From Priapulus caudatus (taxonomy: Eukaryota > Priapulida > Priapulimorpha > Priapulimorphida > Priapulidae): 44,346 bases of DNA. Both the position numbers and the translations under genes were made by a program. Shown here piece after piece: positions 3,054-28,919 of this stretch (the first letter of the stretch is position 1; each line of letters starts with the position of its first letter). The notes beneath the pieces were generated by a model. It was not told where the DNA came from and ran no database searches. It was given only the letters and a program-made list of their open reading frames with translations. The stretch covers positions 1 to 44,346 of the forward strand of contig NW_014577116.1 of NCBI RefSeq assembly GCF_000485595.1. The letters are read 5' to 3'.

Positions 3054-3550
3054 CACTTGCGAAAATATAGTTATAATGCGCAGTTAGCTCAGAGTTGAAA
3101 TTCGCGCGTATATCGGTATAGGTATAACGGTGTATACACAGGCACTTGAAGCGTTTCAATAAAATATAATGCTAACGAAATACGAAATCTATTTACTACC
3201 AACTTCTTAATGTTTCTATTCTCTCTTTCACCTATTATTGCCAACACTTTCCTGTAAATTCCGTCCAAATCCTACGTGCAACGCTACCAAAATCCTACGC
3301 TGCCAGCCGCCATTGCTTTCGCGGCTCCACTGTTGCACGCTTACACTAATATATATATATAGTACTATTATATAGTATACTAGAGTATAGAAACATTAAG
3401 AAGTTGGTAGTAAATAGATTTCGTATTTCGTTAGCATTATATTTTATTGAAACGCTTCAAGTGCCTGTGTATACACCGTTATACCTACCGATATACGCGA
3501 GAATTTCAACTCTGAGCTAACTGCGCATTATAACTATACTTTCGCAAGTG
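3054..3550. mobile_element. Long inverted-repeat (foldback) element
   Basis: The left arm 3054-3219 and right arm 3387-3550 are inverted copies of about 165 bp with only a few differences. Their outer ends are CACTTGCGAAA / TTTCGCAAGTG. The 167 bp loop holds a GC-richer stretch and a TA run. I see no clear target duplication. A diverged copy of part of the arm lies at 27275-27362. Confidence 0.85.
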
Positions 3551-8021: not shown

Positions 8022-8067
8022 CAGGAGTGTATAATAGGGATGATAGGATCCCTATTATACACTCCTG
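8022..8067. mobile_element. Micro-hairpin element, copy 1 (46 bp)
   Basis: Perfect 20 bp arms, CAGGAGTGTATAATAGGGAT and its complement, surround a 6-base loop. Flanks are the 8 bp direct repeat ACGCACAT at 8014-8021 and 8068-8075. This supports insertion as a discrete unit. Confidence 0.85.
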
Positions 8068-8082
8068 ACGCACATATAAGAG

Positions 8083-8108
8083 AGAGAGAGGGGGAGGGGC
8101 GAGAGAGA
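8083..8108. repeat. Purine-rich GA tract
   Basis: AGAGAGAGAGGGGGAGGGG-type tract just after micro-hairpin copy 1. Confidence 0.7.
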
Positions 8109-8390
8109 TGAATCATTTCGCTAGACGTAAATATACATATTAAATTTAAATTTACTAGCTGTATATCAATGTATATAACATTTGAATTAAGTAAGCACAT
8201 GTAGTTCTCTTGATTCTCTGGATATATGATACATATGATATTATGACACACCATAGCAAAGATGATAGTTGCTGCCAAAAACAATGATTTATGACCAGTC
8301 ATTGAAATGCAAAACAACAGAACACAATAATTTTTACCTGCTTTTAACCTAACCAATCTGAGTGAAACGCATTCTTACGCATGTTTACAC

Positions 8391-8391
8391 A

Positions 8392-8427
<36 letters not shown>

Positions 8428-8438
8428 CACACGCGCGA
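8391..8438. repeat. (ACGC)n microsatellite, second locus
   Basis: Tandem CACG units end in CGCGCG. Confidence 0.9.
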
Positions 8439-8439
8439 G

Positions 8440-9200
8440 CAAACTAGTCCTGCTACTTTCCAGCTATTAGAGGAGCTATGCATGGATGCTGGAAAGATAA
8501 ATCATTCTAGTGTGGGAGCTCCCGAGTTTTGATTTTAATGTACATCTAAATTGTGACCGTTCAAATGTCAGTCAATAGCCACAGCATTTTGCTATAGGCG
8601 ATGAAAGCAGTAAAGAATCCAACGCACTTCTATTGAGGGTGAAAAACTCACTGGACAGTTAACTTTAATAGATCAATTTACTGACATGAGAATATACGGA
8701 TATTACCTCCGTAAATTCTCACCCACCTTAAAATATGGCGAATAAGAAAGAGGTTTAGTATATAATTATGCTTACGTGTCAAAGGGTCACTAAATATCCT
8801 TTTAAATAATATCCTAATGCCCCTCTCACGAAAGTAATAAAAACAAAAAGGGTTTTCTATTACTGCTCTATATTTTTCTACTACTAATACTATCCGACAT
8901 TTCAATCCTATACACCAAGGACACCGGTCATTTCGTGAGCTACCGAGATCTTTGTGGTCACCGGTGACACCGCAAATGTCGTAAGTACGGCTTCATAGAC
9001 TATGTACGTATATATTAAATGCAAGCGAACAAAAACATTACATAAAAAGACTCGTGTAGCAAAAGCTACAACTCGAGCGACGGCGTAAATGCGCTGCCAG
9101 CATTATTTTCTTCTATTAAAAGCTGCCCTCGCTTATGAGTGAATCTGCTTTCTTTCATAAATAGCGAGATTTAAATAGATGCAGGATAGCATGCACGTGT
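8440..9200. other. No gene seen
   Basis: AT-rich sequence with only short frames. The largest, 75 codons on minus at 8678-8905, has no recognisable motif. Confidence 0.5.
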
Positions 9201-9224
9201 GCTGTCGATCTCCCTCAGATAGTG

Positions 9225-9560
9225 TTTCCGCACTCCCGTCAGCGGTGGGCCGGAAAGCGCCGAGCCGACCGCCTCACCCCGGCTGAATAAAAATCCCCAC
9301 AGACATAAACCTATCTTTAACACTTGCTTCGGGGCTTAAGGACCTATAAACCTATCAGCAACACACACTGCAGGACTTGAAAGACGTGGCGTGACGTAAC
9401 TCGCTCGCATATCAATGAAGCTCTCGGCAGTCTACTTTCTACGTCTGCGGGTTTTCTACGCGACCCAGGCAGCTGCTGCTGCTGCCGCCGTCACCACCAC
9501 CGCCGCCGCAGCCGCTGCTGCTGCTGCTGCTGCTCCCATTCCTGCACTGTACTAGACGCG
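9225..9560. other. GC-rich block with a GCT/GCC triplet repeat
   Basis: CpG-rich sequence around 9230-9290 is followed at 9471-9536 by GCTGCT, GCCGCC and ACCACC triplets. On the minus strand, ATGGGAGCA at about 9541 opens a short frame of about 27 codons that is nearly all Ala and Val. It ends at TAG, so coding is unlikely unless spliced. It may be a promoter-type island. Confidence 0.4.
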
Positions 9561-9812
9561 AGAGCATAGAACGTGGAGGTTTTTTGTACAGCTGGCTAAC
9601 CTAGTTAAGAATAAATATCATCACCTGTCTCCGCACCACCGAATGGAGGAAGCGTTAATTACGTCATCGTCTCAGAGAATAATTGAATAATGGCGAGGAG
9701 AAAATGCGTAGCTGCAATCTCCTAAACATGCGTAGGCATCACAGTGTGTATGCACGTAGCTATAGGTAAAACCCAGCACACATTCCCACGCACACGAGAA
9801 AACATTATCACT

Positions 9813-9872
9813 ATATTATTATTATATATATATATATATTATATCAATAAATAAATTAAATATATATAATAA
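9813..9872. repeat. AT-rich dinucleotide repeat
   Basis: TATTATTATA(TA)n followed by its near-complement, able to fold on itself. Confidence 0.8.
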
Positions 9873-10478
9873 TATTCTGCTTGTTGAACAAAATTTTTTA
9901 CGTTCGCACATTTAATACTGCATGACTTAAGTTCACGTAGCTATATCGAAGAATATAGCGCCTTGTATATCAGGCAAGTGAAATGGCACTCTGAGATGAT
10001 GACGTTTAGATATTATATCTGTAACCATATTTTATTACAACTCGATTGCCTTCTTTAGACAAATTCAGATCGTATACGCCTACAATATATGGTAACGGTG
10101 GAATAATAGTTCTCGTGCCAAATACAACTAGAACATGATTGTGGTTGCATTATGCATTCATGGACGTTTCCTATTGAAATACTTCTGCTAAAGTATACTT
10201 TCCAACAGGTTGTTGCCGCGTTCATTCGCAATATCTATATATATATAAAGTTGTTCAGCCGAATTAGTTCGTACTCGCATAACTAGAGAACTCCGCAGCC
10301 TAGAGGAAAACTAAAGATATTTTCAGAATCAGCACGTCTGGGAGGTGGTTCTGGCTAAAACAAAAATTTTAAAAATTTTAAAAGTTAAAAATTCATAAAA
10401 ATTATATTCATCAATAGATGGCGGTGCGTACTGATTTTAACATCACGTACGTGTAAATCCATGGGGTATACCCTTAAC
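9873..10478. other. No gene seen
   Basis: AT-rich sequence with no frame, repeat partner or signal I can support. Confidence 0.5.
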
Positions 10479-10549
10479 GGCGCAGTGGCCTAATCGCTAG
10501 AACATCCGTCTCCTACACCGGGATTCCGGGTTCGAGTCCCAGCTGGGGA
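10479..10549 (+). repeat. tRNA-derived SINE-like head or tRNA pseudogene (tRNA-Arg-CCT type)
   Basis: The A-box region (GCAGTGGCCTAATCGCTAG), anticodon loop CTCCTAC and B box (GGGTTCGAGTCCC) match tRNA-Arg(CCT). The acceptor stem has mismatches and the anticodon stem has a C-C mismatch, so a working tRNA is unlikely. A T- and C-rich stretch and then a simple repeat follow directly, as in a SINE body and tail. Confidence 0.65.
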
Positions 10550-10679
10550 ACAGCAAGGCTTTCCCCTTTTTCCCTTTTTTCCCCTTTACCTACTACCTCT
10601 TTAGTATGTATTGTTTGTAATTTTTTTGTAATTTTTTAATATCTTTTACCTTTTGATTTCTTATTATTTTTTACTGTTT

Positions 10680-10890
10680 GGGATGGGATGGCATGGCATG
10701 GCATGGCATGGCATGGGATGGGATGGCATGGCATGGCATGGCATGGATGTTATGGGATGGCATGAGATGCGATGAGATGGGATGGGATTGGATGGGATGG
10801 GATATGGGATGGGATGAGATGGTCTGCGGTACGATGGGATGGAATCGGATGGCATGGAATGGGATGCATGGATGGATGCATGGATAGATA
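10680..10890. repeat. (GGCAT)/(GGGAT) pentanucleotide repeat
   Basis: Pentamers GGCAT and GGGAT alternate in blocks, then degenerate into GGATGCAT units. The array starts about 130 bases after the tRNA-like unit. Confidence 0.9.
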
Positions 10891-11277
10891 GATAGTTATA
10901 TTTTTTGGGGTATTTTCCTTTCAACCAAGCGGTCACCAACTGAGTAACGCCACTGATTTCCCCGGGCAATGCCGGGTATCCCGCTAATACGATATATTAG
11001 CATATTTCCAACATTACTATACACCTCGACAAAGGTCAATGCTAAACAGAATGCCAGCCCTGCTGTTAGATTAGCTTCCCCTAGCAGGTAGAAGAAGCAT
11101 GCAGTGGGAGGTTTAAATTCTCTTCACCGATGAATATAATACAGGAATAGATGAATGACATTTCATTGACTGTCATTAATCAATGTGATACGATTCATAC
11201 AATGTAGAACACGAATATTAGTGTAATTTCGCCGTTTAATATCTACATATTATAAAAGACTAATTATGCTCTTCTGA

Positions 11278-11315
11278 CTCTCTCTCCCTCCCTCTCTCTC
11301 TCCCTCCCTCCCTCC

Positions 11316-11371
<56 letters not shown>
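11278..11371. repeat. (CT)n microsatellite
   Basis: CT runs are broken by CCCT units at the left and pure from about 11320. Confidence 0.95.
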
Positions 11372-11373
<2 letters not shown>

Positions 11374-11608
11374 ATAAAACTCTACACATAGTATAAAAAC
11401 GTGAATTATAAAGGTGTGTAATCAAGCAGGAAACTTTTATACGTAAATCACTTTTCCCTACTTCTCCCCTCCCAACCCCTCCCTCCATCCGAATACTCTC
11501 TCACCACCTCTCCATCGCTTTACATTGATCACAGGCTTCTATATAGCGATATGATGATAATATCATGCATCAACCTATCTTCATGCATGAGGCTGGGCCA
11601 CATAAAAT

Positions 11609-11639
11609 CAGGAGTGTATCAAATATTGATACACTCCTG
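11609..11639. mobile_element. Micro-hairpin element, copy 2 (31 bp)
   Basis: Perfect 13 bp arms (CAGGAGTGTATCA) surround a 5-base loop. Flanks are the direct repeat ATAAAAT at 11602-11608 and 11640-11646. At 31 bp it is the smallest copy. Confidence 0.85.
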
Positions 11640-11649
11640 ATAAAATGCC

Positions 11650-12785
11650 ACCAAGTTTAATACACATTTTAAAGGCAGCAGGTTTTCTGGCAAAAACGTC
11701 GCACATGCAAGGCAGTGTGATGCTGCTTGCTGATGCAGGTACCGCTTGATAAATTAGTAGATTCCAATGCATAGAAATGGAAACAACGGGATTTCTTTTC
11801 TGATGTTATGGTGGATTACAGTCTATTTATGCATTGCCTTTGCACTGTATACAACGTATATGGAACTTATCAGTTGGGAATAGCCTAGTCCAACACAGAG
11901 AATTTAAAACGTGACACCGAAGAGAATTCAACAGACACGGTTCATTTAAGCACGAACTTTTTTAAGTGTTATGAAGTCGTTTAGTGGCTCAAACAACCCA
12001 GAAACGGTCACGGTGCTAATAGATAACTAGTTCATTTGCCCCTTATTTGTTGTTTCATGGAGCAGGCAATAACCACCATACAACTCTATTGTTCCTATTT
12101 TATCACACGTAAGCTGCAGCTGAAACTCAGGCAGAACAAACGACTTTGTACTATCACCCACCCACCTACGCAACCTGAGCTAAGCGCGAAGGGATGGAGC
12201 AAGGAGATTTGATCTGGTTCTGAGTTATTGTAACAAGGAAAACTCACAATCGCTGTTTATGACACGCAGCTACTGTAATTCACTGCCAGGTGCTGCCACC
12301 TTCTGTTGCATTTAATAAGAATGAATAGTAAATTCGAAAAACATTGGGCAGATTTGGGATGATCTCACCTGTAGACAGGCACACATCTACAAAGCAGACA
12401 TCAGTATGTTTATAATAGCCGAAAATTCAGCAATATATTATTCCCATATATACACAAATTTATATACACATTGTTATTACAACACTTGATTCATTCCGGC
12501 CGGCACGGTTATCAACTCTCATAGAATCTGATATCATTTTTGCTCTGAACATAATGCACCTAATGTAACAAATGCACCTAATGTAACAAATAACGCAAAA
12601 CGCCCAAGTTAAGAGAACTCTGTTCTGAATTTTTACACAAGCTCGCAAGCTTTGGTAATATATCAATAAATGATACGCATGAAATATGTTACACGTACAC
12701 ACTGACTAAATGATGAATCACACAGAACGGCAGGATTATGCAATCCTAATGTACCTGACCTGTGTGGTTACACTTGCAACTACAA
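11650..12785. other. No gene seen
   Basis: Frames are at most 80 codons and have no motif. One short direct repeat occurs (TGCACCTAATGTAACAAA, twice near 12555-12590). Confidence 0.5.
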
Positions 12786-12793
12786 AATATTAA

Positions 12794-13198
12794 GCCCGGC
12801 GCACACGTGAGTAATTTTACTCAAGTAAAATGATGCATGCGTAAAAATACTCACGCGAAATATTTTCAGCGTCCGCCACACACGTGAGTAAAATTACTCA
12901 AGGTGTAAGTGGTAATGTAGATCACGTGACTGTGCGCAGCCAATACTGGGCGCAGTCATCTTTAAAATGATTTACACGCATGCACTGTGAGTGTGAGTAC
13001 CAGTGTTGAGTAAATTTACGCAGCTAACGCGCACACGTTGAGTATTTTGACGCATAAGTCAAAAATTATCAAACATGTTTGATATTGAGTTTCTTGATGC
13101 AAGCGTCAGAAAACTCAACGAAAATCCGGCGCACACGTGAGTATTTTGACGCATGCATCATTTTACTTGGTAAAATTACTCACGTTGCTGCGCCGGGC
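12794..13198. mobile_element. MITE flanked by TTAA, 405 bp
   Basis: The ends are TTAA-GCCCGGCGCACACGTGAGTA and its complement (…GCTGCGCCGGGC-TTAA) at 12790-12793 and 13199-13202. Inverted arms of about 60 bp also share ATGATGCATGCGT. The TTAA duplication is typical of piggyBac and Kolobok elements, so this is inferred to be a non-autonomous member of one of them. CACACGTGAGTA recurs several times inside. Short frames over it are not genes. Confidence 0.8.
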
Positions 13199-13202
13199 TT
13201 AA

Positions 13203-13810
13203 AGGCTCACAACGCGGCATCAAACGCTTATTTCACCAGTACTAGGACTAGCAAATACTTCGCTGTCATGCATAATCACACTACCTTATGACAAAATAAA
13301 TCTAGTTGCTCCATTTCACTGCGCGTTGCTTTAAACCCACAAAGAAAGAGTGTGAGAAAACTGGCCATTCTCTGGCGCAAACGCCGACTGTTTGCAAAAC
13401 AATATAGCCTCGAAGTGGTGACGTGACGTCACATGTGTTTTATCTTTGCTGCGCCCGTACCGCTGTACCGCCTGTACCGCTGCACGGTTGCTTGGGGATT
13501 GGGAGAAACCGTCAACCAACATCGGAGAATTCAACAACAGTGGAGGTATTTTCAAAATACCTTTTATAAGACAAACGTGCAGGAAAATGGGCAGGAACTA
13601 GAGTTTATATTTTGTTCACTAAGTAGTGTGATTATGCTATGCCACGAAGTATTTTGCTAGTCTAGTACTGGAGAATTATGCGTTTTTGGCATTGCGCATC
13701 TCCGTGTGAGCTGTTAAGTTTAACAGCACTTCCCACACCAAGTTTCACCATGACGCTGCGATATTCAGAGATAACGTCAAACAGAAACAAAGACAGCCAC
13801 CAAGCGAGCA
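13203..13810. other. No gene supported; contains a perfect CRE motif
   Basis: TGACGTCA lies at 13424-13431, preceded by an overlapping TGACG, with tandem CCGCTGTACC-type units at about 13455-13485. This could be a promoter, but no gene start can be tied to it. Confidence 0.3.
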
Positions 13811-13814
13811 AAGC

Positions 13815-13887
13815 AGACACACAGACACACAGACACACAGACAGAGAGGCACGCACGCAGCACGCGCGCGCACGCCACACAGCACAC

Positions 13888-13962
<75 letters not shown>

Positions 13963-13990
13963 ACACACGCACGCGCGCGCGAGAGAGAGG

Positions 13991-14021
<31 letters not shown>

Positions 14022-14045
14022 GGAGAGAGAGCGACAGAGAGATCG
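13815..14045. repeat. (CA)n plus (GA)n compound microsatellite
   Basis: ACACAG units pass into long (CA)n, then CGCG, then (GA)n with GGGA and GCGA interruptions. Frames across it are repeat artefacts. Confidence 0.95.
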
Positions 14046-14331
14046 AGCCAATGCATGCAGCATGCATATATTTTGCATTACCACACTCTGTCAAGGTACA
14101 CTAGGTGAACGGGGGACGTGGAGAACGCGTACAAGTGCAGTAATTCATTACTTTCATTATATCAACTAAAACACCTATTTCATGAGGTAGAGTAACAGAC
14201 TAAATAACAGTTTCGCTAACATTCTCTAAAAATATTTGCATCCTATACCAACTCAGAATCAGATATAGCTGCCATTATTAAACACATAGAAGTATTGATA
14301 CTGTTCCGTTCTTTATCATTATACATGTAAT

Positions 14332-14376
14332 CAAGACTCAAGAGTACAGAATAGAGATCTCAATTATATACTCTTG
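14332..14376. mobile_element. Micro-hairpin element, copy 3 (45 bp)
   Basis: The ends are CAAGACT and ACTCTTG, and the pairing is imperfect: a second CAAGAGT lies 7 bases inside. Flanks are the direct repeat ATGTAAT at 14325-14331 and 14377-14383, which sets the borders. Confidence 0.75.
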
Positions 14377-14577
14377 ATGTAATATTATAGTGGTTCCCCA
14401 CTAATTTTAAGTGTATGACACGCAAAGAGACCAAGCGGTCAGACTGCAAAAATATTGGACAAACATGGTGAAGCTCCTTTTAGTGCAATTATGGATCGAT
14501 CTAACAATAAAATAAATATGTAGTGCCATTAATATCATATCATGTTGTAATGTTGATGTGGCAAACCAGCATACTAT

Positions 14578-14616
14578 CAGGAGTAAGATAATATATCCTA
14601 TATTATCTTACTCCTG
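14578..14616. mobile_element. Micro-hairpin element, copy 4 (39 bp)
   Basis: Perfect 18 bp arms (CAGGAGTAAGATAATATA) surround a 3-base loop. Flanks are the direct repeat ATACTAT at 14571-14577 and 14617-14623. It lies only 200 bases from copy 3. Confidence 0.85.
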
Positions 14617-14623
14617 ATACTAT

Positions 14624-16140
14624 CCCATCATAGATAACATCCCCTTCTCTAATGCATACATTACATGACATATAAGTTACTGCGCTGAAATATGTGCCCA
14701 CATTATGGGCTAATAGTTGTCAGTCAGTCGTTTCAAATGTGAAAAAAAATTGCAGAGTGGTAAGTCTGGAAATTGCTGCAATATCTTACTATGACATGAT
14801 TCCGCTATGCCAGGACAGTGTCAATGATATAATAAAATACAAACAAAAGAAGTTAAATTCCAACCAGCATAACTGATTGAAGAATTTTGTGTCAGTTTGC
14901 AGTACACTGTATGATACATTGTAACATAGTTCAGAATATGAAATATTGTATATATATATAGTTAACAAATACTGAAACAGATATTTCTATTCTTTTATGT
15001 GAGATGGGCTATTGGATGAACACTGAGCTGTTACTCGCACTCACAATGACTATTGGTGGTCGTGAGTAAATGCCAACCCCGCACCGGACAATTTTATTTC
15101 ATGATTTAGTTTTTTTGTTGGCAAAAACTCTAGCACTGGGGACAGAATGTGACATAGTAGGACCGAGCTCTCACTATCACTGAGATTTGGAGAGGTCGTT
15201 AGCTAGGCACTCGCAGCAAAGCGTATGAGCACACATTATCACAAATGAGCCATGCCGAGTATCATTCATAGATCCTATCGATCCTATGCAGATCATGATA
15301 TCACCTTGCACTAGCAATTCTTTTATTCAACCTTGAAATCTTGTTTTGTAGAGTACATACTATACATTCTATACATTCTATACATTCTAATACATGCAGA
15401 ACGTTCACGTAAATAATTCAACCTAGGTTATTATAATAATGTGGAAGTACGAATATCCTTCGTATTTTTCAGCTATATAACTACAGCAAACAAATTCATC
15501 TACACTTGAACCTGATAACATTAGCCAAACCTAAACCTGAACCGGCATTAACATACTGTGACAGATACGCATCTGATGGGCAAAAATAGTGATCAAACTA
15601 GTGGTAGAACGGCTGTAAGTGTAAACACTAATATTCCAAACAAAACACATGGCTACACACCGGTCAAATACACCATGAGAATAATGTAGGAACTATATCT
15701 TTATTAGTAGTTTATTATGTTTTCATGTTTACATTCAGGGAACTCATGAGGCAGCATGTTTATCAGGGTTTGTGCGGCTGAGCTTATCTAAGCAACGCTG
15801 TGCGGCCGAGAGCAAATGCACCCAACCTAAGCATGACCCACAGCATGGGGAATTTTGACAGATATCCGTTTATAATCGAGTTTACTCAAGCTAGTGAGAT
15901 TACCAAGCAATAGGTCATATGATCTAAACCATTTCACTCCCAGCACTATCAACTGAATCTGCTTTCATGAATACATAGTTAATATATTATATATAGCCTA
16001 CATACAGATCGACACCAACTGTAAACTAGTTAAATGCTATATCTATGGGATACAGAAAAATTAGCCCGTTCAATGCATCAACCATACCCAGTATCCTACC
16101 CAGTAACATCTTACTATTCACAAGGAAAATATTAGGTTTT
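14624..16140. other. No gene seen
   Basis: AT-rich sequence. A small tandem (TATACATTC, about 3 units) lies at 15358-15392. If the minus-strand exon at 16147 is real, this is its intron. Confidence 0.5.
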
Positions 16141-16146
16141 ACTTAC

Positions 16147-16543
16147 CAAGCAAGCCACTACTGGAATAAACTCCTTGACTGTACGGCCGATACTGAATAG
16201 GTACACAGATCGGAGACCCTTGGTTGCTATCCGATGCTCTTCCTAGTTGAATGCCACCTAGTGGTGAGTGGCTGAGTGGCACATGGGGACTCTGACTGCT
16301 GTCTGGGGTCGCTCTGGCAACAGAGCGACCCAGGCTGCTGTCTGGAGCAGTCCTGGCAACAGCCCTCTCCGGAAGTGCTATTGCAATCGGTCTAACAATG
16401 GGCAGCTGGGCAGAGCTGCGTGGGGTTAGGCCATGCACATGGCTGCCCTCGACCACGCCCCCTACCTGCACCACTCTCTGGTTCTGCTCGCGTGTAGTCG
16501 TGATTCTGTCAGCATCCCGAGATAGGGACTCTGACATTATACC
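16147..16543 (-). CDS. Unidentified coding exon, probable first coding exon of a minus-strand gene
   Basis: On the minus strand an acceptor (TGCTGCTTACAG) at about 16544 precedes GGTATAATGTCAGAG, and a strong donor (TTG|GTAAGT) follows at 16146. The frame is open from ATG at 16537 to the donor: 130 codons plus one base. The peptide starts MSESLSRDADRITTTREQ and is rich in S, P, R, Q and G, so probably disordered. It contains an internal tandem repeat of about 12 residues (VARTAPDSS then VARATPDSS), visible in the DNA at about 16285-16360. I recognise no domain and see no convincing next exon downstream (lower coordinates). The GC-rich codons differ from the AT-rich surroundings, which supports a real exon. 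Confidence 0.5.
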
Positions 16544-16698
16544 CTGTAAGCAGCACAAGAGAAATTAACATGTAAAGAAATATTATAATTTCGTATTACT
16601 ACTATATACCCTCGCGCATGAATACACTTATTCACGTGCTGAAGCACCCATGCACACACGCTCGTGACAGTACTATGTTGGGTCATCGCCAAACCTAC

Positions 16699-16766
16699 CT
16701 GCCGAGATACCTGCAATGAAGTCGGTAGCTATGTGAGGCCTTCCTCCACTTCAGCGCCATGGGAAC
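16699..16766 (-). other. Possible upstream 5' UTR exon with a short uORF
   Basis: On the minus strand, TGTTTCAG|GTTCCCATGG opens and TCGGCAG|GTAGGT closes a 68 nt exon-like unit about 155 nt upstream of the 16147-16543 exon. An alternative donor, TTGCAG|GTATCT, lies 12 nt earlier. The ATG here, read across the splice, meets a TAA just before the MSESLS start. It would therefore be an upstream ORF rather than the N-terminus. The call rests on splice motifs only. Confidence 0.35.
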
Positions 16767-16856
16767 CTGAAACAGAGAGAATAGCTTGAGATACAAAATT
16801 GCCTCGGGATGACATATGCAGAGTGACGGGCATGCAATATTACTATTTGATACAAT

Positions 16857-16891
16857 CAAGAGCGTATAAAGGTCCTCTTAATACGCTCTTG
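16857..16891. mobile_element. Micro-hairpin element, copy 5 (35 bp)
   Basis: Perfect 11 bp arms (CAAGAGCGTAT) surround a 13-base centre. Flanks are the direct repeat ATACAAT at 16850-16856 and 16892-16898. Confidence 0.85.
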
Positions 16892-17181
16892 ATACAATGT
16901 ATAATAAGATACCCATATTTGGAAGTCTCTGTAAACAGAAATTAACGCTTGGATTCGTACAATTATCCTTATGCGGTCCCAGTTTTTCTTTAGTACAATG
17001 TATGGATATAAAATTTACTGTGTGTACATTTAACAACGAATCACGGCACTCTGTTTCAAGAATACACAGCTCGCCACAGTAAAACGGTCAAAAATGTAAG
17101 CAGCTATTACACTTCAGCTACTTCAAATTTCCCTTCAGCACTGCCTCTTCACTTTAACCTTCCACGACTAGAACCAACTTA

Positions 17182-17194
17182 CCCCCCCCCCCCC
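17182..17194. repeat. Homopolymer of 13 C
   Basis: Uninterrupted C run. Confidence 0.9.
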
Positions 17195-18110
17195 GTTCTC
17201 AATCGTGATACTCACTCAAGGTGGATATTACACTCAATGTTTACTGTTAAATGTTAGATGATTAAATGTTTACTGTTTCTTAATCCTATATTACATATGA
17301 TTATTTAGTAAATTGGACAAAAGTGAAACTGCAGCCGAGGATACAACCACCTTTTCCAATAATTAAGCTGTTCGTCTCGCCAACTGTAGTTTTGCCAACC
17401 AAGAGTTGTTTTTCAGGGGTCTCACCCCGTGGTTACTGTATATGTGATTCCACGTTGTGTTACATTTGTCGAAGGTTACAATTAAATACACTACCTATGC
17501 CTACAATGACCAACAAGACAGGCATTATTACCACCAGGAATTCATGTGCATACATCGTACGGATAAATTCCGGCTACCACGACAACCACTACGACTACTA
17601 CTGTTTACAACTATCCACTACTATTACCATTGCATTCACCCGACTCATGTTTACTGCTACTGCTAGTGCTACAGATATTACAGTATCTAGATTTAAAAGA
17701 ACGTACCAGCAGGCAGTCAGTATAGTTCAATGGCACAGTTTACGAATTTCGAAGTCTAGACTGGCTAACGTAGTTGTGGTTGACAGACCACGATGAAACA
17801 GTCGACCAGCCAGAGTTCATGCGCAGCGTTCCAGGCAGAGGCCAGACTTTTACGATGTGGACTGACAATTGCAATATCCGACGGCAAATAACACTGGCAA
17901 ACTCCTACGCAGTAGCTGTAGGATTTATAACCGATGTGGTGCTTGTACGTGTGAAACGATCGTCTATCTAACGAAAGCGACCATATGATCTAGCGGCAAT
18001 AACCGGCTGCACATAACCAGCGGCCAGCAGAGCATTGATCAAGGCTGTATTTACTTTAATCTACATTGGCGGAGATAGCAAGATTGCGACGGTATAACTA
18101 TTACCAGGCT
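17195..18110. other. No gene supported; 157-codon open frame of uncertain status
   Basis: The + frame 17323-17796 stays open for 157 codons. The product is rich in T, I and Y, has no domain I recognise and has no supporting start context or splice sites. It is probably chance. Confidence 0.25.
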
Positions 18111-18117
18111 ATTACAT

Positions 18118-18345
18118 ACACGCGTGCTTCTGGCGTTCGTTCACGTACGCGCACGCGCGCGCACGCACCCACACACACACACACACACACGCACGTTCGC
18201 GAACGCGCATACATTCACGTACGCCCACGCACACACACACGTACAGATACGCATATTTACACACGCGATCACACACACTCACACGCACACGCACACACCC
18301 ACGGTCACATAGACATTCACATGAACGCACACATAGCTAGATAAA
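18118..18345. repeat. CA/CG-rich degenerate microsatellite
   Basis: CACACA, GCGCGC and CACGTACG units alternate. Frames on both strands are repeat artefacts. Confidence 0.85.
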
Positions 18346-19930
18346 TGCAGACAGCCTGCAGATTTTTCTGCCATGAGTCAGTTTCCTCCGCCCACTCCCT
18401 TTTCCCAGCAGCTAACCTACATAAACCTTCCTGAGCCCTGCCCCCTACTCTGTATACATGTAAACGAAAGTGCAAAGGCGACAACACCCAGGGTTGAACT
18501 AAATGTGAATGAATAACGTAAAATATATTTTGCTTGCCCATATTTCACACATATAAAATAGATCTTATATATATCATAACTATACGGACTGGCATGTTAT
18601 ATACGCGTTATTGGTGAATTCTGTATTTCCATTTTTTTGGTATATCCTTTGAGCAGTACCTTAATTTTACTCATTAGCTCTCGATTTTCCTGGCGATATC
18701 TATTTTTCTTGCAATTCAAATTTATTGATTTTTTACACTTTATTGTATAAATAACCCATTGTTATTTTATTAGTAGAGGTGGCAATATGGATTATCGATT
18801 ATACTGTGTTATAATTGATCATATTGTGAGTCTATTATATAGTGATTGTCGATCAATTATAGCTACAACTGAAGAGCAGAAAGCAGTCCTAAGTTGACTG
18901 CCAAATTGAAGACTTGAGGCGACTAGTTCAAGCGGTAATACACTCATCACGCAATATGTACAGCATATTCTACATTTCCGTCTTGTGACGCATTGAGAGT
19001 AGTTCTTCTCAGATATTTACACTTTTCGACATGTGTTATTTAAGTTTATACGCAGCGTAACCAGTGGGTACGTTTTATACGTGCGACACATTTTCCATCA
19101 TGAAACATCATTTTCCATGCGCTCGCGACACGTCGAGAGGGTTGGTTCGTCGCTTATTTCTCGGCAGCGCAGCCCGTCTAGCCGCTTGCTACGCACAACA
19201 GAAGGTGAGTTTTATTCACGCCGCCCGCCCTTGCGCGTATAATACTGCGTGCATACATACGCTCGACGGCTGCTGAGCCAGACGCTTTCTGATGTACATG
19301 TATATGATATTATGTGGCGTGTTGCAAGGGGGCTGGCTTATCCGGTAGCAGCCGACACAGACAGCAATACATACACTCTGCGACCCGACTACAGGCGGCC
19401 TTGCAGGCCTGTGTGTAGAGAAGAGAATTCGCACCGTCTATACTCCCCTCTATACTACGCTATACTAGCTCTACAGAAATGTCTACGAAACGTTTTCTCC
19501 TGCCCACACGCATTCGTTTAGACTGTTTTGGGGGGTGACCAGCCGATTTCTCCTTTTACAAACGTCCTATTGAGAAAGAAAATCACACGTTTTATGGAAC
19601 CGCCACTATATTATGTTTTTTTAAACAAAAGTTCAAATGTTTAAAAAAATACTAAAGCTTTTAAGATATTCAAAAGTTACCCTCATCCTATCTAGACTCG
19701 TCGTAGTGTCAACGCTGGCATTTAAACCATCGCGGTGACGTTGAATCCATGATCAGACATGTCACAAAGACAGGCTACCTGGTGAAGGTATATGTCGCAA
19801 ACCAAATTCTAACTCCGTCGAGCCGGTTTACTAATTAACTGGCAACGATATACGATTCATACGCTTACTCGCTATTACGCATGTATCCACACCACACCGG
19901 GCCTACATGCATCCTCCACACGTCCGGAGA
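18346..19930. other. No gene seen
   Basis: Frames are at most 90 codons. The stretch 19080-19440 is somewhat richer in CpG and could be regulatory. I see nothing specific. Confidence 0.45.
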
Positions 19931-19939
19931 ACCACTGTA

Positions 19940-20181
19940 GCAGATGGGGTCGTTGTCGTATCAGGTACTACAGATTTGCACCCGATGTAGTTTTAGGTTG
20001 TTTAGTATTATGTTTATATTTTTATATGAAGTATGTTTAGGGTTAGGGTTAGGGCTAAGGTTAGGGTTAGTGTTAGGGTTAGGGTACACTTCTGTAGTAC
20101 AAGTCTGGTACACTTTGTGTATACATATATGTACCTCGGGTACATATCTGTAGTACCTGATACGACAACGACCCCTTGAGC
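19940..20181 (+). mobile_element. MITE with internal TTAGGG repeats, copy A (242 bp)
   Basis: Inverted termini start GGGGTCGTTGTCGTATCAGG and continue to TACTACAGAT. Interior TTAGGG units run at 20037-20084. The outer six bases (GCAGAT left, TTGAGC right) match the edges of copy B, so they belong to the element. The 9 bp flank ACCACTGTA is repeated at 19931-19939 and 20182-20190. Such a length fits Mutator-like elements, but the superfamily is not proven. Confidence 0.8.
20037..20084 (+). repeat. Interstitial telomere-like (TTAGGG)n
   Basis: About eight TTAGGG units, some with a changed base (GCTAAGG, GTGTTAGGG), lie inside MITE copy A. Confidence 0.9.
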
Positions 20182-20190
20182 ACCACTGTA

Positions 20191-20885
20191 GCTACCGAGT
20201 CGCTGTAATGACCTGTTTTCAGTGTTGCAATTTGTTCCACTAAAGCACTTCGAATACTACCAGCCACGGAAACTCTGGTACGTCTTTCAACTAACGGCCA
20301 TTGCCACCACGAGATAGGTCAGCAGAATAAACGTATTTACGAACAACTTCAATGAGCTGTCTTCAATCCGCCATGACCACAATGGTCCGGCAGGAAATGG
20401 TACAAAGAGTATAAGACCTGTCCGTGAAAAAGAACCAGGCTGGCCCAGGCACATTTACACAACGCGTTCACAACAAATAGAAACGCTGCCATACGCTGTA
20501 TGAAAACCTTCCCATGGTATCTTTCATGTAAATTGTCCAACATCTAACTAATAACAGCATGAATTTAACTGCAACTGGTTAATAAATACCTACGCACATT
20601 CGCTTGAAAAATTTAGGTTCGGTATTTTAGATTTTGGTAATATACGAGATTGTGTAGCCGGGAAAACGTCAGTATAGCGCTAATGTCGTAAAACCTGTTT
20701 CACAGTGGAATTTTTTCCTGAACTAAATAACGTGCTACTTAATCGTGCTATGAAATAGACCACCACCACAGTTAAAGATTCAAGCATTCTCCGTCTTGCT
20801 TTATGTCAGGCAGCCAGTCCAAGTAATGCTGCATTATTTACTATATTGCCTGCACCATTCGGAGACATAGATATGTGACCATAAG
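20191..20885. other. No gene seen between the two telomere-repeat MITEs
   Basis: Only short frames; no motif. Confidence 0.5.
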
Positions 20886-20888
20886 CAC

Positions 20889-20960
<72 letters not shown>
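20889..20960. repeat. (CAA)n microsatellite, about 24 units
   Basis: Pure CAA run. The Cys or Val runs on the minus strand are artefacts. Confidence 0.95.
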
Positions 20961-21252
20961 GCGACATAAGTAGTACAGTCTGTGCAACATATATATTTTA
21001 TGGCTAAATGATTTGACATACACTGCATGACGCCTATAATTACATTATCGTATTACAATACATTGAAGTACTAAGCTCCCGAATGGCTTCTTATGTGTGG
21101 CCGAGATTTAAACGCCCGATATCCATCTTAAATGCAGTCACTTTACCTGCAAGGAATACGGAACCACGGGAAGGTAGTAGGCATCATATCAAGGCAGCTT
21201 TTCAATCACCTTCGGGCAAATTAGTGGCATGCCTCATCAGTGCGTCACTAAC

Positions 21253-21480
21253 GCTCAAGGGGTCGTTGTCGTATCAGGTACTACAGATATGTACCCGAGG
21301 TACATATATGTATACACAAAGTGTACCAGACTTGTACTACAGAAGTGTACCCTAACCCTAACCCTAACGGCCTAACCCTAAACATACCTCATATAAAAAT
21401 GTAAACATAATACTAAACAACCTAAAACTACCTCGGGTACATATCTGTATAGTACCTGATACGATAACGACCCCATCTGC
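21253..21480 (-). mobile_element. MITE with internal CCCTAA repeats, copy B (228 bp), inverted relative to copy A
   Basis: It has the same termini and interior as copy A in opposite orientation, with CCCTAA units at about 21349-21380. The arms are flanked by ACTAAC-GC and GC-GTTAGT, an extension of the palindrome rather than a direct duplication. No clear target duplication is seen. Confidence 0.8.
21349..21382 (-). repeat. Interstitial telomere-like (CCCTAA)n
   Basis: About five units, one broken by GG, lie inside MITE copy B. Confidence 0.9.
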
Positions 21481-23340
21481 GTTAGTATAACCGACGGAAA
21501 CTACACCACCTACCCGCCCCACCCAGCGTCGCCCACCCACCAAACCCTCCCTGCTCGTTGCTACGGAGATTAGCCATCAAATACGAAACCCAGTCGCATT
21601 TTCACTGACACTGTACGATGGGTACTATACAGTGAGCGCTAAACATAGGCGGGCCTATTTCTCATATAGCCTCACTGTGTTACTGATGCAAATAATGTCT
21701 GATATCACAACGCGAACACATAGATCGCATGAATTACACTATAAATACTGCGCGCACAATCATTTTCGCCAGAACGTAAATAGGTGCGAGTGAGTGCATA
21801 CTACATTCATGTGCGCGTGCCGTGCATGCGGGCGTGGGTGCTGTCTGCGTGTGTACAACCGATTAGCATATATCTATTAACAGGTACACAGGGATGCACG
21901 TGTGCTAATGTACAGTCTCCACACGCAGTGAACGCTGTAGTGAAGTCTGGCTGCAGCTATAGTATACGCAGCGGCATGAATTCAATCCACGCTTGGTAAT
22001 CGTACGTATAAATCAATTCACAGAGACTAGGTGTGTAAAATTGGCGTTCAATCGATGCACGCGTGTCAGTGTTTTCAAGCCACGTAGCTATGTGTACATA
22101 CACTAACCAACTTTCTCCGATTCAAACTGAACATAGTACGCATAGTAATACCCGTGGCGACATTGATCTGATGTACTTTGACCTGTAATCTAACAACATC
22201 AATAACCTCCGACTAAAACTATAATAAAACACCAAGTGTGTGGACTTCAACCCCACCCAATTCCTCGTGCGAAATACGTTTGCTCGTAACATGCACACAA
22301 AGTTATAGCGGTGACGATAGAATGGCACAGTCACCAATGCTAACGCATTACTATGTCAAGGGAAATTCCACAATTCTCGGTGACACGGTAACAACTTACT
22401 TGTCGCTACGGTTGATCCAGTCAGGTGGTCTTACACGGAGCCGTTTACACGGTGCCTAACAGCACGATACACACAGCATATAGGAAAGCGTTAGAAGGTG
22501 CTCCTTTCCTATCAGACCAGCTTGTACGAGTTTCCAAACACCGTCTATGCGCCTACCGTGTACAGCTACGTACATGAACGTACATCTATAGCACCAGGTG
22601 GTGCAAAGAGCCTTGCAAAAATGCTTGGCATGTCGCCCACTGATGTGTTACCAGGCCCGGCAGACGGCTTATACCTGAAAGGTCACCTGGGTGTGATTTT
22701 TGAAAGTCCCGATTGAAAATTACATGTCTAACAAGCCACTTCAGAATAAGCATGTAAAGTTTCTTGAACTTGACAGGTTTATATAGTTCCCGCTTTTCTG
22801 CAGCGCGCCTGGACATGCAATAGAAAATGTGCCGCCGTATTATGGGGCACTGAATGGCAAAATATCCAGACACAATAATGCGCCTTTTATATTGGCATTC
22901 ACTGAATGGGCAGTGATAACTGTTGATTGCCGTGCACACGTCAGTACTTCACAGGCTGTATGAATTTTGTCCGCTCACCGCGATAACTCGCTATCGACTA
23001 TGCACGCACGCACACTGTCTGCAGCAGACATGCCAGAGGGAAACCGTGGCGCTTACGACATTGTAGGCGGCGGGTTGAATGTAGGTGAACACTGGTGCAG
23101 CGCGCCGAGCAACACACGCAGTCTGCGCGGAAAGCCGAACAAAGCTAGGCACTGTCGGGAAATTCTCTGCTGGTGCGTGTACATCTACCGCCACATACCA
23201 CACACTATTCCTCAGCGCTGGCCTACAGCTCTCTTCGTATGCATGAACTTGTACACATTGAACACGTAGTGAGTGGTGGTTGTGACGCTCGCAGCGCATG
23301 CATGTGTCAATGCGCCGACCGAGATACTATTGTGTATAGC
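21481..23340. other. No gene supported
   Basis: The largest frames (117 codons on minus at 22586-22939; 100 on plus at 22967-23269) show no domain. A short hairpin, ATAGGAAAG / CTTTCCTAT, lies at 22480-22512. CpG content rises around 22980-23200. Confidence 0.4.
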
Positions 23341-23361
23341 GTTTTTTACGCGCCACCGTTT

Positions 23362-23510
23362 GCGCTTGCGTGCATGCGTGGGTGTGTGTGCGCGCGTGCC
23401 TCCGCGCGGGTGTGCGTGCGTATGCATGTGTGTGCGTGTGACACGGTGTGTGCGTGCGTGCGTCTGTGTGTAGTGTGTTCGTGTGTGCGTGCGTGCGTGC
23501 AAGCGCATAT
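23362..23510. repeat. GTGC/GTGT degenerate microsatellite
   Basis: GTGCGTGC and GTGTGTGC units are interrupted by CCTCCGCGCG. Confidence 0.85.
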
Positions 23511-23725
23511 GCGGATGTGTCGGTTGTATAGTGGAATAACTAATAAGTAACATTTGTAAAATACCGACGTGAAACCACAGACTGGATTTCCGACTTTTAT
23601 ATACGAACTTTACAATCCGTGCGTGCGTGACATTACAACACTACAACAACCTTGGTGATTTATTAAAGTTGTAACCATTTTTGTAAAAAAAGAGATATAG
23701 ATATATTATCCACTCCTGATATAAT

Positions 23726-23765
23726 CAGGAGCTAATAATGACAAATCATTATATGATAGCTCCTG
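23726..23765. mobile_element. Micro-hairpin element, copy 6 (40 bp)
   Basis: The ends CAGGAGCTA / TAGCTCCTG pair perfectly and the inner TAATGA / TCATTA pair with an offset. Flanks are the direct repeat ATATAAT at 23719-23725 and 23766-23772. The 8 bases left of the duplication, CACTCCTG, look like the end of another copy. Confidence 0.8.
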
Positions 23766-23825
23766 ATATAATCTACATGTACCCAAACGCATGTAAATCC
23801 ACATTACCTAAGACTAATAGTACAC

Positions 23826-23935
23826 TTGTACATATCTCTATGAGTGTACCTATAGTGTACCTGTAGTATAGGTACTCTATGAGTGTACCTGTACTCTACA
23901 TCACCACACTATCTCTATGAGTATGAAAGACATCC
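23826..23935. repeat. Short direct repeats around TCTATGAGTGTACCT
   Basis: TCTATGAGTGTACCT occurs at about 23837 and again at about 23876, with a partial TCTCTATGAGTA near 23912. Confidence 0.7.
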
Positions 23936-24299
23936 ACTATATGACTATACAGATTCAAATTTTTCCCCGATCAGCTCACACCCTCCTGTACGATATTCGT
24001 ACATAATCTACGAAGACACCCTTCTAGTACATCCATAGAGTCAATATTTTCACTGCCTAGTTGAACGCTTTACTCAGTGGGTTTTACATGAAACCAATAG
24101 AAAGCTCGATCTGAATTTTTAAATACAATACTATCAGGAACGAATAAAAGGTTAATTACTCTGCTTGCTTGCCCGCCGGGGCCAGTTATATAGCATTCTC
24201 GAGTGCACATACGGTTTCCCGTAAGTACGCACGCATAAACAGACCAGGTTACCATATCGCTAGCCTACTTCACAAGTGCATCATCCCATTCGTGTTCAT

Positions 24300-24760
24300 C
24301 AACACGCCGCAAACCTTGTTTTGTTTCTTAGCTGCGCCCGAAACGGCCTGCGCGAACGGTCAAACACGGTCAACAGCCCTGAAACAGCAACACCAGCGGC
24401 GGGCGGGCGACACGAGACCGACCGGTGGGGCGGCGGGCTGCACGCACGCAGCCGAGAGAGCAGGCGGCAGGGATCGAGAGCACTATTAAAGGGCGAGCAC
24501 GACCGCCGCGGCATCCCCGACTACGGAGCAATCCTCGCCGGCTAGACAGCGATACGCGGGGAAGCTGCTGTATCGTAGTCGGCGGGCGCGCGCGCATAAA
24601 CTATAGTCTATAGAGCTTCTGGTCGATTTGCAGCAACTGACCTTTTCAGTGCACGCGCGAGAACTACGACGAACGTCGGACGCAGCGGCGGCAAACCGCG
24701 GCGCGACGACACGCGCGCGCGTGCGGGTACACTTACATAATCGATACGTTCCGGTGACGG
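24300..24760. promoter_or_regulatory. CpG-rich block, candidate promoter island
   Basis: This is one of the most CpG-dense stretches in the window, with GGGCGGGCG, GGGGCGGCGGG and GCGCGCGCG. A TATTAAAG TATA-like word lies at 24484-24491. Overlapping open frames on both strands (61-106 codons) are expected from GC-rich DNA. No downstream exon can be assigned. Confidence 0.35.
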
Positions 24761-24769
24761 CAGCTCTAA

Positions 24770-25415
24770 ATCTCGGGTTGCTTGGTTTGTGCAAGCATCA
24801 CTGAAGCGGCGAGAAATCGGTGATTCCCCAACTCGCGAGGTTTCTGTGTGACCGGTATACGCTATTACAACGCGCGTAGTAAACGTGCCTTCTGTGATTA
24901 TAAATCAAGCGTTGCTGTACTCAGGATTCTGTCTACTCCGTGTATGCCCTGCATGCACAAGCCGCTGTTGTCCAGCGCATAAATGAACTAAATCTCATTA
25001 ATAAGCAAACTAAAGCGATTCGTCTAGTCCAGTACATCCTGTTACAAGTCCTTTTATAACATACACGGCATTAATTCATATTACCATATAGAAAGGTGTA
25101 TGAACCTAATTATATATTAGAGTGGTGTGATAATTGATGCAGCATAAAAAATAGAAGAGGATAAATAAATGCGTATTCATATTTAGCTACGCTGTATAAC
25201 AAGACAAATAACGGGTTCCAGGGTGAGGACGTATTTTGTGCATTAAAGATATATTCTGGATGAGATTATTATTATATTATTTAGTAAATAACGTTTCGCG
25301 CACAAATTAATGACATAATTTGCATGAAAACTTCATCATGGGATTATTTATTATCAAACCACTACTAATATATTCGTTTTACCGTTATACATACATTACA
25401 GTCTCCAATTCAATA
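24770..25415. other. No gene seen
   Basis: AT-rich sequence with no feature I can support. Confidence 0.5.
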
Positions 25416-25421
25416 CACTCA

Positions 25422-25766
25422 CAGGGATAGAAATTAACTTTTAAACACGGGAGTCCAACGGACTCCCTAAAAAGAGGGAGTCCGCAGCAAAATGAGGGAG
25501 TCCGCAGTCTGAAGTTCAAAATTAAAGATATTTTACAATAACGCATGTGCTTATTTTTAAGATTTATGCGGTTGCACGTCTGCCAAATTTTCTTTGGACA
25601 TTAGCTGAAATAATATGGTAATTCCGCAAGGCCGTGCTCTGGAACGAACTAGTTAGTATGGCAGAATTTTCAGGGAGTCACACGGACTCCTACACATGTC
25701 AAATCAGGACGTCCGACACAGTAAATCAGGGAATATTTGACTCCGGACTCCCGTTAATTTCGCACC
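25422..25766 (+). mobile_element. hAT-like MITE, copy 1 (345 bp)
   Basis: It starts CAGGGATAGAAATTAAC and ends GTTAATTTCGCACC (inverted). The flanks TACACTCA (25414-25421) and CACACTCA (25767-25774) match at 7 of 8 bases. The CAGGG end and 8 bp duplication are hallmarks of hAT transposons. A second copy in opposite orientation lies at 36876-37211. GGGAGTCC and its complement recur near both ends. Confidence 0.8.
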
Positions 25767-25912
25767 CACACTCATACATGTGCGCATGCAACGATGTACT
25801 GCCATGGAATTCAATACATGCAAGTATGCTCGCACGCACAAACACGCTCAACAGCCGTATATGCAACAAAATCAAGCTAGCAAGCTAATTGGTTTCCTGG
25901 TTATGATTTTAC

Positions 25913-25973
25913 CAGGAGTGAATAAAAATACTCACTCCTGACTCAAATACTCACTGAGTTTTACTCGCTCCTG
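25913..25973. mobile_element. Micro-hairpin element, copy 7 (61 bp)
   Basis: The ends are CAGGAGTGAATAAAA and TTTTACTCGCTCCTG, paired with two mismatches, so this copy looks older. Flanks are ATTTTAC (25906-25912) and ATTGTAC (25974-25980), 6 of 7 identical. An internal CACTCCTG lies at 25933. Confidence 0.75.
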
Positions 25974-25984
25974 ATTGTACATAA

Positions 25985-26868
25985 TGTTATTTTAACTAAA
26001 GTTCCAGCTACTAGGTGGCAGCAGCTTGCAGTGCGACGTGTCCCACAGCACCCCACTATTAGATGATAAAATATACGAGGTAATTATGGCTCAATATTAC
26101 AGACTAAAGTAATGCCCTGCGTCATCCAGGCAATACGTTTCAGAAAAAAAGGTTCATAAAGCGAAAATCCGTGACGTGAATCACGTTTTCCCAATGTTAA
26201 TAGGAGATGCGTTCCCACGGAAAATCCTTCAGTTAAAAATAGACGTACTATTCGTAGCAGCTGAAGTCGTCGTAAACTGCGATGAAAAAATACTCACAGA
26301 CACATGGGGGAGTAATTTCAAGGAACACGTACATTTCATCGCAACAGTGCATAGCGACAGGTAACACGTATCAACGATGACGCCCCAGAGGTGCTGGCAG
26401 CTGGCCGCACATTTATTACATACGTTTTAGTTACGGTAATTGAAGAACTGTTGTGTAAAATCATCTATTCAATCATTTGAAAAGTTCCAGGGGAGCAAGT
26501 TTACGTTTTGTTTCCTGAGTTTAGTGGTTATAATTTACAAATTAGGCACGGACGAATTCTACGTATGGCCCAATATACGTAACAAGCTGTCGTACCGTGG
26601 GGTCCTACTGTATATTGAATAAATGCTTGAGACATTAGCTGCTATTTATATGGCCCGTATTTCACGCAAGCTGTATTTTTGAGGGTGTTGGACACATTTT
26701 TGGATGTGTATGGACCCTCAACAATCGACTCATACGTGAAAAAAAATCACTCAATTGTGTCATATTTGTTGTGCTCCTGGTAAAATCTATCTACATGGAG
26801 TGAACATCGCCTCTTAGCCAGGTAATGTTCGACTGAGCAGCTCTGACAACCTTTTTATATTAAACAAC
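25985..26868. other. No gene seen
   Basis: Frames are at most 62 codons; no repeat pairing found. Confidence 0.5.
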
Positions 26869-27982: not shown

Positions 27983-28264
27983 TGGATCATCACTAACTCC
28001 TATCTGTCAGTATCTGATGTAGGTATTTTCAGAGACCAATGTAGCCTGATCTTAAGCGTGCAATCTTGGTAATAAGCAATGGTCTGTTTGGATGGTCAGT
28101 GGTGGTGTAATGAGTGACCGATAGTATGAACACATATAACCGTCTTCCTATCTCAGCAGCATCACATTGACGTTGCCATTTAGCACTAACTGATTTTCTC
28201 GCTGCACTCTTGATGGTTCCTTGGGATGTTATACAGTCCAGCTTATTCAGATTTTTGGCCTCAC

Positions 28265-28877
28265 AACTGGCTTCCTTCGCTAGTCTATCGGCTATCTCGT
28301 TTCCTGCTATATCAGCATGGCCTGGTGTCCAGTCGGTGTTGACTGAGATGCCTTTTTCCTCCAGCTGACTAATACGGCTCTTGGTGGTAGCTTAGGTGTT
28401 ATGTAGCTGGTTAGCCTTCCAGCCCAGTGTGAGTAGTCCAACTGCGGACTGGCTATGGGAGAGGATCTGGATCTCCTCTATACTGGCTAATCTCACATCG
28501 CTGAGGATATATTCCAGCGTCATAAGGATGGCAACTAACTCTCCCAGTAGTATGGATCCGTGGAGTACTGGCTTCCTAAGTTCCTTCAGCTGATCCGAGT
28601 CGGGTAGTACAATGCAGGTGCCTGCTCCGCATGGTCCCGGGTTGGTCTGGCAGCTACCGTCGGTAAATGCTATAGCTGTGGCCGGTGGGCAGCTCTGGAC
28701 TATACTACGGATCATTTCCCTGTACTGTTCTTCCTGCAGGCTAGAGCGATCCTTGGAGGAGCCCAGTAATGACCAGTACTCAGGTGGAGAGCGAGAGGGC
28801 TGTAGTGACAGGATGTATGAGAAGCAAGGTTCAACACACTGTAGAGAGGTACCTGTCTCAGTGGTCATATCCTCCAT
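28265..28877 (-). pseudogene. RNase H domain of the LINE, one catalytic residue changed
   Basis: Visible motifs are AIAFTDGSCQTNPGPCGAGT (first Asp), LLGELVAILM (Glu), ILSHSQSAVG and, after an in-frame TAA at 28392, WTPGHADIAGNEIADRLAKE (His and last Asp). The family normally has Asp in the third position (LSDSQS). Here the codon at 28455-28457 reads His (CAT). Together with the stop, this makes it a dead copy. Confidence 0.85.
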
Positions 28878-28919
28878 CTGTGACTGGGCTAGGCCAAATG
28901 GTGAGATGTACCTTTCTCT

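Follow-up and report, generated by a model that had tools for sequence, protein, structure and literature searches.

Seven very short hairpin elements of 31-61 bp were found in a stretch of Priapulus caudatus DNA (contig NW_014577116.1), the whole of which (44,346 bases, with a GC content of 0.41) was analysed and is termed the window hereafter. The elements begin with CARGAG and end with CTCYTG, and each is flanked by a direct repeat of 7 or 8 bp. The two arms of a copy remain complementary to each other, while the arm sequence changes from copy to copy. With slightly less than even confidence, we propose that they form a non-autonomous family resembling miniature inverted-repeat transposable elements (MITEs), in which copying from one arm to the other maintains complementarity within the source copies.

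Hairpin elements with common ends

Scanning of the window for CARGAG followed at most 75 bp later by CTCYTG, irrespective of any flanking repeat, yielded eight pairs that correspond exactly to seven copies, designated c1 to c7 (Table 1); c7 contains two nested pairs and was counted twice. The scan confirmed the seven loci listed in an earlier note, which had been made from the sequence alone. It also recovered for the copies the ends given there (CAGGAG or CAAGAG and the complement), except that c3 reads CAAGAC at the boundary of its flanking repeat. No copy was found by these criteria after 26 kb, in agreement with the same note; with seven copies the chance of such an absence is about 0.024, so that the observation is weak.

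All seven copies possess inverted terminal repeats, composed of the common ends plus longer arms, although in c3 the end comes after a 7-nt near-duplicate. Six of the seven consist of a single stem with a loop of 3-6 nt; in c3, c5 and c6 this stem is interrupted. The exception is c7, in which an inner hairpin of 28 bp (25913-25940) occurs together with a AAATACTCACT segment present in duplicate. The perfect stems previously described for c1, c4 and c5 (20, 18 and 11 bp) were recovered, whereas that of c2 extends over 14 bp instead of 13 bp, and c6, omitted from the previous list of pairing copies, also forms a stem of 16 bp with one 4-nt bulge. Folding as single-stranded DNA gave z-scores between -7.9 and -9.8 for c1, c2, c4, c5 and c6, and a z-score of -4.7 for c7.

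In addition to the seven copies, a solo arm that is absent from the earlier note directly adjoins the left repeat of c6. The solo arm, ATATAAT, c6 and again ATATAAT follow one another without gaps, an arrangement that would be expected if a second element had used the target repeat of the first.

Table 1. Coordinates and structure of the hairpin elements, their flanking repeats and the solo arm
Feature	Position	Strand	Structure	Left repeat	Right repeat	Repeat sequence
c1, hairpin element, 46 bp	8022..8067		perfect 20-bp stem, 6-nt loop	8014..8021	8068..8075	ACGCACAT both, 8 bp
c2, hairpin element, 31 bp	11609..11639		perfect 14-bp stem, 3-nt loop	11602..11608	11640..11646	ATAAAAT both
c3, element, 45 bp	14332..14376		inner hairpin 14339-14376 with 19-bp arms and 3 mismatches; 7-nt near-duplicate CAAGACT before hairpin	14325..14331	14377..14383	ATGTAAT both
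c4, hairpin element, 39 bp	14578..14616		perfect 18-bp stem, 3-nt loop	14571..14577	14617..14623	ATACTAT both
c5, hairpin element, 35 bp	16857..16891		11-bp stem, one mismatch, then 3 bp; 5-nt loop	16850..16856	16892..16898	ATACAAT both
c6, hairpin element, 40 bp	23726..23765		16-bp stem with one 4-nt bulge; 4-nt loop	23719..23725	23766..23772	ATATAAT both; left one common to solo arm
c7, element, 61 bp	25913..25973		ends match over outer 15 bp with 2 transitions	25906..25912	25974..25980	ATTTTAC / ATTGTAC, 1 mismatch
Solo arm	23694..23718	-	minus-strand reading CAGGAGTGGATAATATATC...; c4-like through c4 centre			

Flanking repeats and target sites

A direct repeat of 7-8 bp flanks all seven loci, as had been claimed, and provides the signature of insertion. 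The repeat is exact in six copies, in five of them at the motif boundary. That of c3 is exact and lies 7 nt outside the motif, so that the start of this element has to be placed at 14332, ahead of CAAGAG by the same 7 nt; the repeat of c7 carries one mismatch. The duplicated length is 7 bp in six copies (c7 with its mismatch) and 8 bp in c1, the repeat of which sits in a CACG-rich stretch and is the least informative. All six 7-bp sites fit the target motif NTNNNAN, compared with a background of 0.085 per site, the motif having been picked after the sites were seen. A search with modelled empty sites, made within the window alone, found no empty site; its matches were the flanks from which the models derive, simple repeats and short stretches attributable to chance.

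Hairpins in repeat-rich DNA could also be chance palindromes or structured regulatory signals, such as terminators or RNA hairpins, and the window is indeed rich in simple repeats and also holds larger palindromes. We attach next to no probability to this reading, in view of the common ends, the repeats at all seven loci and the controls below. In 20 order-1 Markov versions of the window, three units in total showed inverted 6-bp ends with an exact flanking repeat of at least 7 bp. The same search of the real window gave 15 rows, nine of which were noise from simple or tandem repeats and six of which described five of the copies (c6 twice); such Markov controls do not preserve microsatellites. 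A motif-blind census of perfect stems of at least 10 bp with loops of at most 8 detected five in the window, including c1, c2 and c4, and zero to two in each of ten order-2 Markov versions. Two other perfect hairpins with different ends are present at 16306-16331 and 25459-25484, with stems of 11 and 10 bp, respectively, and the latter lies among repeated GGGAGTCC segments.

The control set for regulatory hairpins, drawn from 253 prokaryote or viral loci, comprised 313 pairs of complementary six-base ends with a comparable spacing. These loci came from a degenerate palindrome pattern (115 prokaryote and 18 viral stretches) and from a second pattern (at least 120 viral stretches). An exact flanking repeat of at least 6 bp at the boundary occurs in 1 of the 313 control pairs, whereas the same strict rule finds a repeat in five of the eight window pairs. 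The sole positive control locus (L055) has the repeat AAAAATA in an AT-rich context and is terminator-like in our reading. Another locus (L139) with two matches was dropped; the contig that holds it is rich in GC (0.62) and carries repeats of the CAGGAGTC type. Palindromes of the bacterial terminator type, which lack a flanking duplication, are ruled out by the repeats at 7/7 copies against 1/313 control pairs. An Rfam scan of the window revealed no match at the gathering score. On the basis of the shuffles, the Rfam scan and the prokaryote/viral control, both chance and regulatory hairpins were rejected. Two subfamily-specific patterns gave no match in viral contigs, and no relative of the family was recognised in the viral and prokaryote collections, as expected for an animal repeat; records from the window's own genome may be excluded from these collections.

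Covariation of the two arms

Alignment of the outer 14 + 14 bases of the seven copies, a small set of 98 cells, revealed that pairing is kept while the arm sequence changes. Bases pair in 92.9% of the cells, compared with 32-51% in slid structures, and 8 of the 14 stem pairs have changes on both sides. Shuffles gave 5.5 ± 1.8 doubly changed cells and a covariation score of 0.187 ± 0.045, whereas the real alignment has 16 such cells and a score of 0.490. At positions 7-14, arm identity reaches 84% within a copy and 49% between copies; among all 5040 possible pairings of left with right arms, only the real pairing attains the observed within-copy mean. Random pairs from the window show 26% identity, measured over ten positions. 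The earlier statement that the arms are unconserved past bases 6-8 needs correction: a weak conservation exists beyond these bases (49% against 26% in random pairs), with a mean anchored score of 2.98 versus -1.25.

The arms are also not fully private to each copy, contrary to what had been proposed. Arms of c1 and c3 align along their whole length, gapless over 19 bases with six differing positions (score 9.5, 0/1000 shuffles). At positions 3, 8 and 17, G is found in both c1 arms and A in both c3 arms, and the remaining three are positions at which the c3 arms disagree with each other. The match between c4 and the solo arm spans the stem and the centre with a score of 11 (0/1000 shuffles). 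These two links suggest that subfamilies have been inherited. Over their full length the copies have the ends in common and the inner arms only weakly so, with the two subfamily-like links in addition.

Diversity of the arms predates insertion

The flanking repeats were used as an internal clock, on the assumption that mutation rates are similar in stems and flanks. One of 50 repeat positions is mismatched (95% bounds 0.05-10.6%), or 1 of 42 when the c1 repeat is left out. Mismatches between the arms within copies amount to 6 of 117 positions, in an alignment that has one gap in c6 and excludes the interior of c7 as well as the 7 nt duplicated in c3. The two rates do not differ (Fisher p = 0.68). 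Therefore, each copy is compatible with a perfect palindrome at insertion followed by ordinary decay. By comparison, 17 of 56 left-arm bases at positions 7-14 are off the consensus. Even if divergence is set to the upper 95% limit derived from the repeats, 0.106 per base, a count of this size has P = 4.5e-5. As repeat decay is far too small to yield such diversity, the differences between the arms of different copies predate insertion. Descent from one master with neutral decay is thus ruled out by the clock, and the earlier rejection of point-mutation descent from one master is borne out, pairing being kept in the copies as sequence changes.

The clock also bears on a single master family whose inserted copies acquired their different arms in place, hairpin-templated repair having restored the pairing. 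Such a history would produce strong covariation, and further studies reportedly describe arm-to-arm correction as a known mutation type. It is presented as such in the part of one published account that was available (PMC8794818). Nevertheless, with 1 of 50 repeat positions changed, the time since insertion is too short to account for inner arms that differ between copies at about half of their bases, and this history escapes the clock only if stems gain point mutations many times faster than flanks. Restoration of pairing after insertion, one of the options of the earlier note, is therefore a poor fit to nearly intact repeats and to arms that differed beforehand; such co-evolution of the arms is disfavoured, and we judge it distinctly improbable.

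Proposed mechanism and alternatives

Based on these results, we propose that the element is little beyond two fused inverted ends (CARGAG...CTCYTG). A transposase supplied in trans from elsewhere would recognise the outer six bases and introduce staggered cuts 7 bp (once 8 bp) apart at AT-rich NTNNNAN sites. The source copies probably exist as several subfamilies. Within each source lineage, both arms would be held identical through template switching or through hairpin or cruciform repair. The arm sequence would then drift with pairing near perfect, and the constraint would act mainly on the outer six bases. Taken with the target repeats as an internal clock, the covariation of the arms points to a renewal of pairing in the source copies and not post-insertion. 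Template switching is able to create and maintain perfect stems, as described in the available part of the account (PMC8794818). By analogy with known systems, the transposase would most likely be of a type that duplicates 7 bp, for example from the 1360/Galileo branch of the P superfamily, and less likely of the hAT type. The 8-bp duplication that defines hAT elements is seen in c1 only, the other six copies having 7 bp.

We consider it unlikely that the copies represent a class of transposons whose mobile unit is the hairpin itself. In that case each insertion would begin as a perfect palindrome written from one arm, the arms would covary family-wide, selection would act on the outer six bases only, and functional units would reach down to 31 bp.

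Several points weigh against the proposed MITE-like family. The evidence comes from a single window, with seven copies plus a solo arm. The duplication of c1 is 8 bp and not 7 bp, and c3 makes a poor hairpin, with a z-score of -2.3 and 7 of 200 shuffles equally good. A duplex of 31 bp is shorter than expected for a two-ended synapsis. A Pfam scan found no transposase family in 24 window open reading frames (ORFs), out of 41 listed with at least 95 aa; the hits among those scanned were TRAP alpha and, in two neighbouring ORFs, RNase H, which stays below the curated cut-off in the second. Among the 341 end pairs of the window that were examined, none delimits a longer element flanked by an exact repeat. 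The c4/solo arm and c1/c3 links concern short AT-rich stretches and rank highest among 98 comparisons, for which the shuffle counts are uncorrected. Reading the palindrome from its opposite strand lowers the former to a score of 8.0 (2/1000); as for the latter, the 14 best comparisons do not include the one that pairs the c3 arm in question with the second arm of c1. Furthermore, the P element itself duplicates 8 bp according to the part of the account at hand (PMC3276498).

Each copy might instead, as the earlier note suggested as its other option, have been born from one transposon end, if a 3' fold-back or a template switch copied the end into a perfect palindrome that was then inserted, so that the arms were private by birth. 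Pairing compatible with perfection at insertion and arm diversity older than insertion would both follow from such a birth; the loops of 3-6 nt in c1-c6 and the variable stem length are in agreement with it, as is a total size that is small for ordinary two-ended transposition. However, inheritance and not independent birth is suggested by the stem and centre that c4 has in common with the solo arm, and by the alignment of c1 with c3 over the full arm. We give this origin a low probability.

The size problem would disappear if the copies, never mobile at their present size, were what is left of longer transposons whose inverted repeats were long and perfect, interrupted gap repair after insertion having removed all but parts of both repeats. 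This process is a route to short elements, and it would explain the intact target repeats and the matched arms. However, hardly any copy retains unique internal sequence, the different arms would require several different parents, and among the 341 end pairs of the window an exact 7-8 bp repeat is confined to the copies. A 7-bp repeat with one mismatch occurs in seven pairs of distant ends; as these repeats are not exact, none of the pairs was accepted as a longer parent within the window. Six of them join known ends of different copies or of the solo arm at similar AT-rich sites, and the seventh is 11609-26779. An origin by internal deletion appears rather unlikely to us.

Few transposable units known to us would be as small as those of the proposed MITE-like family, if these are mobile at their present length. 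Mobility at this size would raise the question of how a transposase joins two ends about 30 bp apart. The covariation of the arms makes hairpin-templated copying in transposon evolution directly testable.

Other features of the window

The window contains long simple repeats and several larger repeated structures. A long palindrome at 3110-3495, with arms of about 100 bp by eye, contains TGTATACA / CAGGCACTTGAAGCG and is possibly a larger foldback element. A very long imperfect palindrome with arms of more than 200 bp by eye extends over 31600-32170. The segments 19933-20175 and 21246-21474 form an inverted pair of related sequences (GGGGTCGTTGTCGTATCAGGTACTACAGAT...) about 1.1 kb apart, each with TTAGGG-type telomere-like repeats. 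At 23835-23930, TCTATGAGT occurs three times around GTACCTATAG-type palindromes.

Two protein-coding features were observed. An exon of the translocon-associated protein alpha subunit lies at 41113-41481 on the plus strand (Pfam TRAP_alpha 5e-8; three PDB relatives) and shows that the window is nuclear DNA of a eukaryote. On the minus strand, an RNase H domain at 28029-28919 spans two neighbouring ORFs in the same frame with a stop codon between them, and is possibly derived from a retrotransposon. Those of its relatives that carry an organism name, seven among the best 120 of 224, are all RNase H-like proteins of bivalves, and no relative was confirmed in viral contigs.

Comparison with known systems

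Classical MITEs and foldback elements are short and non-coding, have inverted ends and target duplications, and can form hairpins. The present copies differ from them in their length of 31-61 bp, in having almost no interior and in having covarying arms instead of one consensus. The titles and abstract openings surveyed contained no transposon family of 31-61 bp with covarying arms, which is a weak indication.

The published accounts cited below were available in part, and the comparisons are limited accordingly. Mar, a hAT MITE of the Buster group, has the terminal inverted repeat CAG(G/A)GGTAGGC and an 8-bp duplication of the form nnnTAnnn, and its PCR fragments measure about 270-455 bp in most species (PMC3517528). 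It is non-autonomous like the proposed family, its terminal inverted repeat resembles CA(G/A)GAG, and its 8-bp duplication is similar to that of c1. In contrast, six of the seven duplications of the present family are 7 bp long, and the elements have almost no interior. Perfect stems and paired changes are also found in quasipalindrome correction by template switching (PMC8794818). That is a mutation process and not a mobile element, and it is invoked here for the source copies only.

The nearest match found is with Galileo and 1360 of Drosophila, members of the P superfamily, a likeness in duplication length and target motif. Inverted repeats of Galileo are long and internally repetitive, whereas the present elements are 31-61 bp in total, and unlike in these systems no P transposase was seen in the 24 of 41 window ORFs scanned. 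1360 generates a 7-bp duplication at GTTNAAC / KTNBWAB, compared with 8 bp for hobo (NTNNNNAN) and 8 bp for the P element (PMC3276498), and Galileo generates a 7-bp duplication at GTAGTAC (PMC2775673). The 7-bp length agrees with that of the present copies, and the target motifs of Galileo and 1360 fit NTNNNAN (PMC2775673, PMC3276498). The inverted repeats of Galileo are 98-100% identical within a copy, while identity between copies averages 79.5% overall and is 92-97.1% within subfamilies (PMC3573991). Galileo therefore resembles the present family in an arm identity that is higher within than between copies, and in its subfamilies.

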